Shown in pieces: positions 891 through 31,943 of a stretch of DNA of 64,000 nucleotides (within the stretch, counting starts at the first letter, position 1; every line of letters starts with the position of its first letter). Source of the DNA: Aromatoleum aromaticum EbN1 (lineage in GTDB: Bacteria; Pseudomonadota; Gammaproteobacteria; Burkholderiales; Rhodocyclaceae). The stretch spans positions 2,294,001 through 2,358,000 of the forward strand of contig NC_006513.1 in assembly GCF_000025965.1 (NCBI RefSeq). The letters are read 5' to 3'. Below the pieces are notes generated by a model. That model was not told where the DNA came from. It saw only the letters and a list, made by a program, of their open reading frames with translations, and did not search any database. A program made the position numbers and the translations under genes.

Positions 891-1565
891 CTACGGCTGC
901 TGTTCCGCGGGCCTGCCGTACCAGCGGAAGCGCTCGACGACTTCTTGCATCTCTTCGTTCGACAGCAGCACCGGTTCGCCGAGCTGCCGCGTGCGCCAGT
1001 ATTGCTCGCACAGGCTCTCGAACTCGAGCGCGAGCGCGAGCGCGTTGGCGAGGTTGCGGCCGAACACGAGCATGCCGTGGTTCGCCATCAGGCACGCGCT
1101 GCGTCCTTCCATCGCCACCGAGATGTTGTCCGACAGCGCCTGCGTGCCGAACGTCGCATACGCGGCGCAGCGCACGGTAGGGCCGCCGAAGCGCGCGATC
1201 ATGTAGTGGAACGGCGGGATCTCGAGCCGCTGGCACGCCAGCGCGGTCGCGAACGGCGCGTGTGCGTGGATGATCGCGCCGGCTTCAGGTCGCAGCGCGT
1301 AGAGGTCATGGTGCAGCCGCCATTCGCTCGACGGCGCGAGCCGCCCGGTCGGCGTGCCGTCGGCGGCCCCGGCCACCATGGCGACCATGTCGTCGGCACC
1401 GCATGATTCGGGCGCAAGCCCGCTCGGCGTGATCAGCATGCCGCCGCGCGTGCGCACGCTCGCATTGCCCGAGCTGCCGGTGTTCAGGCGCGCCGCACTC
1501 GTCGCCAGCGCGGTCGCGAGGAGCTCGGCGCGCAGGTCCGCGCCCTGGGTGTCCGGCGGGCTCAT
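891..1565 (-). CDS. Class II aldolase/adducin-family protein, probable 5-(methylthio)ribulose-1-phosphate aldolase (Ald2-like)
   Basis: A 224-residue class II (zinc) aldolase. Visible family features are GSSGNASVR near residue 31 (phosphate binding), LITPSG, the catalytic Glu in SSEWRLHH, and the metal ligands in HAHAPFA and ANHGML. The ATG at 1565 overlaps the mtnA stop in an ATGA tetranucleotide, so the two are translationally coupled. In the oxygen-independent DHAP shunt described in Rhodospirillum rubrum and some E. coli, an FucA-like aldolase encoded with mtnA splits methylthioribulose-1-phosphate to DHAP and methylthioacetaldehyde. MtnB dehydratase belongs to the same superfamily and is the main alternative. 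Fold is certain; substrate is inferred from the neighbour. Confidence 0.8.
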   Translation of the reverse strand: MSPPDTQGADLRAELLATALATSAARLNTGSSGNASVRTRGGMLITPSGLAPESCGADDMVAMVAGAADGTPTGRLAPSSEWRLHHDLYALRPEAGAIIHAHAPFATALACQRLEIPPFHYMIARFGGPTVRCAAYATFGTQALSDNISVAMEGRSACLMANHGMLVFGRNLANALALALEFESLCEQYWRTRQLGEPVLLSNEEMQEVVERFRWYGRPAEQQP

Positions 1566-30582: not shown

Positions 30583-31749
30583 CTAAAGGCCTGCGTCGGC
30601 CCGCAGCGCTGCCGCCTTGTCGGTTGCTTCCCACGTGAATTCTGGCTCGTCGCGGCCGAAGTGGCCGTACGCGGCAGTCTTGCCGTAGATCGGGCGCAGC
30701 AGGTTGAGCTCCTGGATGATCGCCTTCGGACGCAGGTCGAAGTGGCGCTGCACGAGCTCGACGATCTTCTCGTCGGTGATCCTGCCGGTGCCGAAGGTCT
30801 CGATCATCATCGACACTGGCCGGGCGACGCCGATCGCATAGGCGACCTGCACTTCGCAGCGATCGGCGAGCCCTGCTGCGACGATGTTCTTCGCCACCCA
30901 GCGCCCGGCATACGCGGCGGAGCGGTCGACTTTCGACGGGTCCTTGCCGGAGAACGCGCCGCCGCCGTGGTGCGCCGCGCCGCCGTAGGTGTCGACGATG
31001 ATCTTGCGCCCGGTCAGGCCGCAGTCGCCGTGCGGGCCGCCGATGACGAAGCGTCCGGTCGGGTTGATCAGGTAGCGCACTTCGCCCTGCATCAGCGCCG
31101 AAGGCAGCACCGGCTTGATGATCTCCTCGATGACGAGCTCGGTGATCTGCGCGTGTGAGACTTCCGGGCTGTGCTGCGTCGACACGACCACGGTGTCGAT
31201 CGCGACCGGCTTGCCGTCGACGTATCGGACCGTCAGCTGGCTCTTCGCGTCCGGGCGCAGCCAGTTCAGCCGACCGTCCTTCCTCAGTTCGGACTGGCGC
31301 TGCATGATGCGGTGCGCATAATAGATCGGCAGCGGTATCAGCGACGGCGTCTCGTTACAGGCGTAGCCGAACATCAGTCCCTGGTCGCCCGCGCCCTGGT
31401 CGAGGTCGAGGCCTTCGCCTTCATTGACGCCTTGGGCGATGTCCGCGGACTGGCGGTTGATCGCGGCCAGCACCGCGCAACTCTTGTAGTCGAAGCCGAT
31501 GTCGGAGTTGTCGTAGCCGATGCGGCGGATCACTTCCTGCGCGATCTCGCGGTAGTTCGGGTGGGCGGTGGTCGTGATCTCGCCGGAGATGACCACGAGG
31601 CCCGTCGATACCAGGGTTTCACATGCGACCCGCGCCTGGGGGTCGGTGGCGAGGATCGCGTCGAGGACGCCATCGGAAACCTGGTCGGCAACCTTGTCGG
31701 GATGGCCTTCGGACACCGATTCCGAGGTGAAGAGGTATTCCTTGCTCAT
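30583..31749 (-). CDS. metK: S-adenosylmethionine synthetase
   Basis: A 388-residue MAT enzyme making SAM from methionine and ATP. It begins with [19 protein letters not shown] (His of the triphosphatase site) and contains [12 protein letters not shown] near 118 and [26 protein letters not shown] near 258-283, with [17 protein letters not shown] before it. AGGAG precedes ATG 31749. Transcription starts about 160 nt upstream, and the leader ends in a terminator-like hairpin just before the ribosome-binding site, so the gene is probably controlled by premature termination. Confidence 0.98.
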
Positions 31750-31909
31750 GCACTGCTCCTGAAAACGAAAAATCCCCAAAGCTGTCCGGCGTGGCCGGCT
31801 CCGGGGATTTCGTCGAGCAGGCGACGCTTTAGCAGTACTTGTGTGCCACGACCGGTTAGGTGCGTTCGCGGCGCCGCCCTGCAAGTTGTCGTATTAACTC
31901 GGCGGCTGG
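31750..31909 (-). promoter_or_regulatory. Structured metK leader with intrinsic terminator (candidate SAM-responsive attenuator)
   Basis: Read on the minus strand, a helix GCCGCC / GGCGGC (31906-31901 with 31878-31873) has a loop containing ACTTG (31886-31882) complementary to CAAGT (31841-31837), so a pseudoknot is possible. Then a stem AAATCCCC / GGGGATTT (31810-31803, 31777-31770), with an inner CCGGC/GCCGG hairpin, is followed by TT and CGTTTT. That terminator ends about 18 nt before the start codon. The leader contains CTAACCG and GCTAAA stretches faintly like pseudoknotted SAM aptamers, but I could not align it to a known class. Confidence 0.6.
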
Positions 31910-31915
31910 GCGATA

Positions 31916-31943
31916 ATTATATGCTTTGTGATCCGGCGGTCAA
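31916..31943 (-). promoter_or_regulatory. Sigma70 promoter of metK
   Basis: TTGACC and a perfect TATAAT are separated by 16 bp on the minus strand. This places the start point near 31909 and defines a 5' leader of about 160 nt. It is the best sigma70 promoter in the window by eye. Confidence 0.75.

Follow-up and report, generated by a model that had tools for sequence, protein, structure and literature searches.

The window analysed here, a stretch of 64,000 nucleotides from Aromatoleum aromaticum EbN1 (NC_006513.1, positions 2,294,001 to 2,358,000), carries on its minus strand the gene metK (30583-31749), which encodes a methionine adenosyltransferase of 388 amino acids and is recognised by NCBIfam TIGR01034 with 601.6 bits (cut-off 309.4) as well as by PDB sequence matches. 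MetK is the synthetase of S-adenosylmethionine (SAM), the main methyl donor. The start codon ATG occupies 31749-31747, the ribosome-binding site AGGAGCAG lies at 31753-31760, and a sigma-70-like promoter is found further upstream on the same strand (31916-31943), with TTGACC at 31943-31938, a spacer of 16 nt and TATAAT at 31921-31916 (11 of 12 matches; shuffles average 0.1). From this promoter-like site, an RNA start near 31909 and hence a metK leader of about 160 nt are plausible, in agreement with the initial annotation, which had described a promoter, a leader of this length and metK downstream of it. The 160-nt leader folds better than its shuffles (z -3.3), only 1 of 200 shuffles being equally good, and the part of it discussed below spans 31906-31750 on the minus strand.

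The leader begins with a helix, P1, formed by GCCGCC (31901-31906) and GGCGGC (31873-31878), all features being given on the minus strand. The loop of this hairpin can pair with a stretch some 45 nt further downstream, as had been noticed from the sequence at the outset (then placed at 40 nt), through GCAG at 31882-31879 and CUGC at 31835-31832; a second loop pairing joins GAC (31890-31888) to GUC (31825-31823). Following the 5' strand of P1, a third strand, L1 (GAGUUAAUAC, 31891-31900), can be numbered by hand alignment with SAM-II, in which G31898 occupies the place of U10 while U31897 and U31896 correspond to U11 and U12. It is followed by the 5' strand of P2a, GAC (31888-31890, partner 31825-31823), in which two of the three pairs are changed on both sides among relatives, and by the 5' strand of P2b, UUGCAG (31879-31884), which comprises U20 U21 G22 C23 and two further nucleotides, pairs with 31829-31835 around the bulged U31831, and covaries in its outer two pairs. 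The 3' strand of P2, CUGC-U-AA-AGC-GUC (31823-31835), includes U31831, equivalent to U44 of SAM-II, and A31830-A31828, equivalent to A45-A47. Between P1 and this strand runs a linker (31836-31872) whose length and sequence vary among relatives, some of which may form a hairpin there (by eye) that can be compared to P3 of SAM-V. Comparative sequence analysis shows the metK leader to hold a P1 hairpin whose loop pairs with CUGCUAAAGCGUC as an H-type pseudoknot, P2.

Copies of this motif were extracted from related loci (n = 155); six were dropped for a wrong or ambiguous register, and the 149 kept comprise 131 copies of the metK-leader subtype, which we name type B (103 of them at metK), and 18 SAM-II-like copies of the same layout, named type A. 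The GCTAAA sites of L047, L120 and L126 gave no extraction, L002 and L028 were omitted as duplicates of L035 and L048, and among the 93 distinct cores that of the window (L035) is represented by the identical L003. Since P1 pairing was an extraction requirement, full P1 pairing in the extracted copies holds by construction, while P2 pairing was not used. Similarly, GCUAAA served as the extraction anchor, yet it is independently present upstream of metK in 80 of 80 metK loci, and its columns are invariant in alignment A2. The latter gathers 68 of the 80 compact type B cores, all within the 93, long-linker copies being excluded. In A2, P1 and the pseudoknot are paired in 96.8% of cells, and 9 of the 15 pairs are changed on both sides. 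The initial annotation had proposed a search with covariance models and a look for covariation across relatives, and such covariation was found, with a score of 0.261 in the 68 cores against 0.096 in shuffles (0 of 500 as high) and at most 0.079 when the alignment was slid; the number of pair types in A2 is not unusual (66 of 500). The third pair of P2a changes from GC to AU in 6 of the 68 cores and the second from AU to UA in one, a non-standard P2a pair occurs in 8 of the 93 distinct cores, and the first outer pair of P2b is seen as GC, AU, CG and GU in A2. Within the pocket, the four inner pairs, of UUGC with GC-U-AA, are invariant in A2 and contribute no covariation evidence. Covariation was not clear in the close alignment A1 of 16 sequences (0.044 against 0.039 shuffled, 46 of 500), because the pairs vary too little in such a close set.

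The gene metK was found in 59 of the 61 genomes examined, four of which (G002, G012, G017 and G024) have a second metK-like match. For 58 of the 59, the region upstream of metK was read (30 initial loci and 28 fetched later), G042 being left out since its metK lies at a contig end. The element precedes metK in 42 of these 58 regions: the motif is present in 26 of the 30 initial loci, with nothing significant found in the other four by the covariance model R2, and R2 detects it in 16 of the 28 later regions with 51.8 to 78.6 bits. Within the same family, the element stands before metK in 35 of 35 genomes (own genome included), against 7 of 23 genomes from other families of the order, the remaining 16 having no element at metK. 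On a larger scale, a covariance model built from 16 leaders (R1) matches 229 of 399 genomes of the order at E<=0.1. Of the R1 loci, 110 were read, namely the 30 top-ranking ones plus 80 chosen manually among the matches listed, and 80 of these 110 adjoin metK directly downstream whereas 30 do not. At E<=0.001, R2 has a match in 161 of the 369 genomes searched from the class and in 34 of the 299 from the phylum, tallies that are not counts of type B as R2 also detects SAM-II-like type A copies; thus, it scores the type A leader of metX in the own genome at 44.4 bits, and many of the loci in the class precede metZ. Finally, a pattern scan of named genomes, whose species overlap with the genome sets searched by the models so that the two are not independent, returned at least 118 stretches; among the 118 listed, 94 have a metK start within 330 nt downstream, 17 do not and 7 end too soon. 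The loci listed include Thauera, Cupriavidus, Bordetella and Polynucleobacter. We take all the genus and family names that we recognised among these listed matches to be betaproteobacterial, one unfamiliar genus having been confirmed by look-up; for some listed records the label goes no further than Proteobacteria, uncultured bacterium or, in one case, Gammaproteobacteria.

Searches with Rfam 15 assigned the leader to no known class: there was no match in the whole window at the gathering threshold, only two chance matches to eukaryotic families in the leader at E<=10, and none in the aptamer region at the same value. Type B in six relatives likewise gave no Rfam match at E<=10. The SAM-V model of Rfam, presumably RF01826, had no match in the window, the relatives or the loci searched, and the SAH riboswitch model (RF01057) had none in the metK leader, whereas two SAH riboswitches score above the Rfam cut-off elsewhere in the same genome (L033, G000:C1:1900922-1901003, and L034, 1088383-1088448; the next genes are, by eye, metH and ahcY). 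The SAM-II model (SAM_alpha, RF00521) found no type B copy at E<=1 in further sets of related loci searched. No type B copy reaches its gathering cut-off of 36 bits, and the single one with any match is that of a relative, which is aligned in the register of our hand alignment with 10.3 bits (E 2.4), a score not significant by itself. The SAM/SAH riboswitch (RF01727) is also a small pseudoknot before metK, but its reports are confined to Rhodobacterales (PMC2864571 and PMC4239095, in extract), and no Rfam match to it occurs in the metK leader here. The initial annotation, which could match the leader to none of SAM-I, SAM-II/V or SAH, was therefore right as far as the models go; the hand alignment nonetheless gives the SAM-II/SAM-V topology and nearly all of the pocket nucleotides.

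The nucleotides around SAM described as completely conserved in SAM-II are U10-U12, U20 U21 G22 C23, G42 C43 U44 and A45-A47 (PMC3764141, in extract), and their SAM-V equivalents are given in the part consulted of PMC6061858. In the hand alignment, type B keeps all of these listed contact positions except position 10: U11 U12, U20 U21 G22 C23, G42 C43 U44 and A45-A47 are all present in the window, as is the H-type P1/P2 pseudoknot with its covariation, but G stands there in place of the conserved U10. The equivalents of the U:A.U triple positions of the superfamily, U11, U21 and A45, of the bulged U44 (adenine) and of A47 (amino acid end) are kept at the level of sequence. Of the 93 distinct cores, 70 have G and 23 have U at position 10 (62 and 9 of the 71 distinct metK cores), while U11 U12 is found in all 93 and UUGC in 91. 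The two other cores (L082 and L085) carry UUUC and precede ORFs of 60 to 65 amino acids, that of L082 without Pfam match. In type A, position 10 is U in 16 of 16 distinct cores, and the joiner is AGC in 15 of 16. Type B shares with SAM-II the pseudoknot, U11 U12, UUGC, GCUAAA and the A-rich end of the linker, but differs in its L1 (GAGUUAA against the SAM_alpha consensus GAUUUGA), in the prevailing G at position 10, in its joiner (AAC against the AGC of type A), in a P2a of 3 bp (GAC/GUC) and in its output, an anti-ribosome-binding-site strand, and has no Rfam match above cut-off. With SAM-V it has in common the pocket positions, the pseudoknot, a predicted translational output and a tandem position behind SAM-II (PMC6061858 and PMC9481103, both in extract). 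However, the Shine-Dalgarno sequence lies inside P2a of SAM-V according to the same part of PMC6061858, whereas in type B P2a is GAC/GUC and the site pairs with a separate strand that follows; the gene context differs as well, being metY or bhmT in Pelagibacter for SAM-V and betaproteobacterial metK for type B. As these defining features are lacking, type B is placed neither in SAM-II nor in SAM-V proper.

The strand 3' of GCUAAAGCGUC, immediately behind the pseudoknot, is complementary to the metK ribosome-binding site; in the window it reads CCUGCUC (31815-31821, minus strand), of which CUGCUC pairs with the GAGCAG of the site. Over 71 distinct metK leaders, the mean energy of the duplex between an anti-site strand and its own site is -14.74 kcal/mol; with partners exchanged it is -10.79 (sd 0.34), and 0 of 2000 permutations were as good. 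A shorter anti-site window in 69 leaders also gave 0 of 2000, and three other leader windows showed no partner effect (266, 851 and 903 of 1000), two short leaders having been left out of these control windows and of the site-opening test below (69 of 71 used). The swap leaves relatedness in, and the control windows share that same relatedness. The paired sequences vary widely, as in CCUGCUC/GAGCAGG, GCAUUCC/GGAAUGU and GCUUCAGACUCCAA/UUGGAGUCUGAAGC. Taken singly, 24% of the swapped duplexes are no less stable than the own duplex, which has a median rank of 10 of 70 partners; the longest anti-site helix has just 4 to 5 bp in 17 of the 71 leaders and in some leaders forms with P4, the hairpin that lies before the site, instead of with the site. 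In the leader of the window, the fold with the aptamer strands blocked pairs CUGCUC with GAGCAG, and the unconstrained fold also pairs the ribosome-binding site. Nested folding gives no switching direction, the unpaired probability of the site being 0.23 free against 0.21 with the aptamer blocked, and lower in 41 of 69 leaders. Three further candidates were rejected. A decoy ribosome-binding site in P4 that would compete for the anti-site strand is weak (73 of 2000 permutations as good). A fold-back hairpin AGC..GCU exceeds in length those of shuffled sequences (0 of 200); this result is confounded, however, since any strand able to pair with a site containing AGC will necessarily contain GCU. 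As to a leader peptide, the only candidate frame, a short one spotted by eye, falls within the linker, a part that varies among relatives.

Between the pseudoknot and the ribosome-binding site, P4 (AAAUCCCC..GGGGAUUU, 31770-31810, minus strand) is followed by a U-run and is terminator-like in this genus, where GGG(G)AUUUUU occurs in 17 of 17 loci. The intrinsic terminator announced by the initial annotation is thus there as a hairpin with its U's, although a simple terminator scan allowing loops of 3-8 only listed no terminator in the leader. However, a run of at least five U between the pseudoknot and the site is found in just 18 of the 71 distinct metK leaders, and the terminator-like hairpin, though real, is therefore not the widely conserved output among the leaders; that role falls to the predicted anti-site helix.

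Besides metK, the element is found in other contexts and in tandem arrangements. Among the 30 non-metK loci, 18 have a type A copy upstream of type B (in 17 both were extracted, and in L126 type B was recognised by eye), and in three loci type A copies score above the SAM_alpha cut-off (38.4, 36.9 and 36.8 bits). Tandems of types A and B precede ORFs of about 100 amino acids that start with MYDC or MFDC in L084, L088, L093, L094, L095, L114 and L116, and the same arrangement is seen in L123 (type A by eye only), L131, L133, L135, L140 and L142; the two such ORFs tested had no Pfam match, and the frame that follows them resembles a MATE transporter (by eye). In L076, a SAM-I/IV aptamer (1056-1179, minus strand; 44.6 bits, cut-off 41.1) lies upstream of a type B element (957-1022, minus strand), and this tandem precedes a frame similar to an AAA/MoxR-type ATPase, so named by Pfam in L078, a locus similar to L076. 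In another family of the class (f210; L297, L312, L315-L317 and L319-L322), type-B-like elements whose P2a is AGC/GCU precede a small ORF; the two of these ORFs that were searched showed a weak similarity to methyltransferases below the cut-off (E 0.02-0.16). Below-cut-off matches of the Bp2_287 sRNA model (RF02424) overlap type A copies on either strand (L116, L144, L123, L127, L142, L088, L271 and L286), a hint that terminated SAM-II leaders, or the complement of such leaders, may be among the members of this sRNA family. In the own genome, the metX leader (L032:1329-1402, G000:C1) is a type A copy followed by a hairpin and a T-run, with a SAM_alpha score of 19.3 bits (cut-off 36). By its gene and layout, this leader probably corresponds to the metXZ element that Leyn et al. 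described (2014; PMC4239095, in extract), which resembles the metK element in being a betaproteobacterial pseudoknot of methionine genes with a terminator, but which sits before metX or metZ and not before metK. The consulted portion of PMC9481103 reports 44 tandem SAM-II cases, some combining a terminator with subsequent control of the ribosome-binding site, and these may include some of the type A/B tandems found here.

The reading we favour, with a probability of about three in four, is that the metK leader belongs to the SAM-II/SAM-V superfamily as a subtype missed by Rfam 15 and acts as a translational OFF switch. The pocket, the metK context and the tandems point to SAM as the ligand, and the OFF direction would follow from the analogy with SAM-V and from the role of metK as the gene of the SAM synthetase. 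Binding of SAM would lock the third strand and P2; with P2 locked, the anti-site strand would pair with the ribosome-binding site and metK translation would go down. When SAM is lacking, P2 would be loose, or the anti-site strand would fold onto the AGC of CUAAAGC, so that the site would be open. In this genus, the intervening hairpin may also terminate transcription. The undescribed SAM-sensing RNA of the initial annotation would then stand as a probable SAM sensor, but as a divergent relative of SAM-II/V and not as an unrelated class. More tentatively, and with clearly less confidence than the subtype reading, type B could constitute a SAM riboswitch class of its own, of the same standing as SAM-V, and be the common metK SAM sensor of Betaproteobacteria. 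Such a class would be characterized by a third-strand G mostly replacing the U that contacts the adenine-pairing uridine, with altered affinity or selectivity, by its own anti-site output, and by recurrent two-mechanism tandems behind SAM-II.

The same aptamer might instead govern the terminator-like hairpin at 31810-31770 as a transcription attenuator. Control of a terminator is ascribed to most SAM-II riboswitches (PMC6061858, in extract), the hairpin and its U-run are constant within the genus, and stretches with a hairpin and T-run follow the type A copies (by eye); nevertheless, the scarcity of U-runs among metK leaders, the lack, by eye, of an anti-terminator kept across the genus, and the partner specificity, which belongs to the anti-site helix, make attenuation unlikely. 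Slightly less likely still is that the RNA shares the SAM-II fold but not its ligand, and senses another molecule (e.g., S-adenosylhomocysteine, methionine or a polyamine) or a protein such as MetK. The G at position 10 in most copies would fit such a change, given that U8, its SAM-V equivalent, touches the uridine pairing with the adenine of SAM (PMC6061858, in extract). A precedent exists in variants of SAM-I, including one at a metK gene, that sense spermidine and reject SAM according to the part of PMC10853860 available, and the metK context alone therefore proves nothing. Against another ligand stand the remaining listed contact positions, which are kept, the occurrence of both U and G at position 10 before metK, the tandems with SAM-II-type and SAM-I/IV aptamers, and the presence of SAH riboswitches elsewhere in the genome. 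Lastly, a conserved ribosome-binding-site hairpin and pseudoknot without any ligand control would agree with nested folds, in which the site is paired whether or not the aptamer strands take part, but a plain hairpin needs neither the invariant loop and CUAAAGC nucleotides nor the covarying pseudoknot, which resemble a ligand pocket, and we give this explanation hardly any weight.

SAM-II in Beta- and Gammaproteobacteria and tandems of SAM-II are already known (PMC2704228 and PMC9481103, in extract), and no report of the present metK element turned up in searches of openly licensed PubMed Central papers. The divergent SAM-II/V relative described here as type B would add an RNA subtype missed by current models, and would represent a natural test of the effect of one pocket change, from U to G, on SAM recognition. 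The regulator of metK in Betaproteobacteria had been sought without success, according to the part consulted of Leyn et al. (2014; PMC4239095), and the element, if our reading is true, would answer this question for a good part of the Betaproteobacteria.
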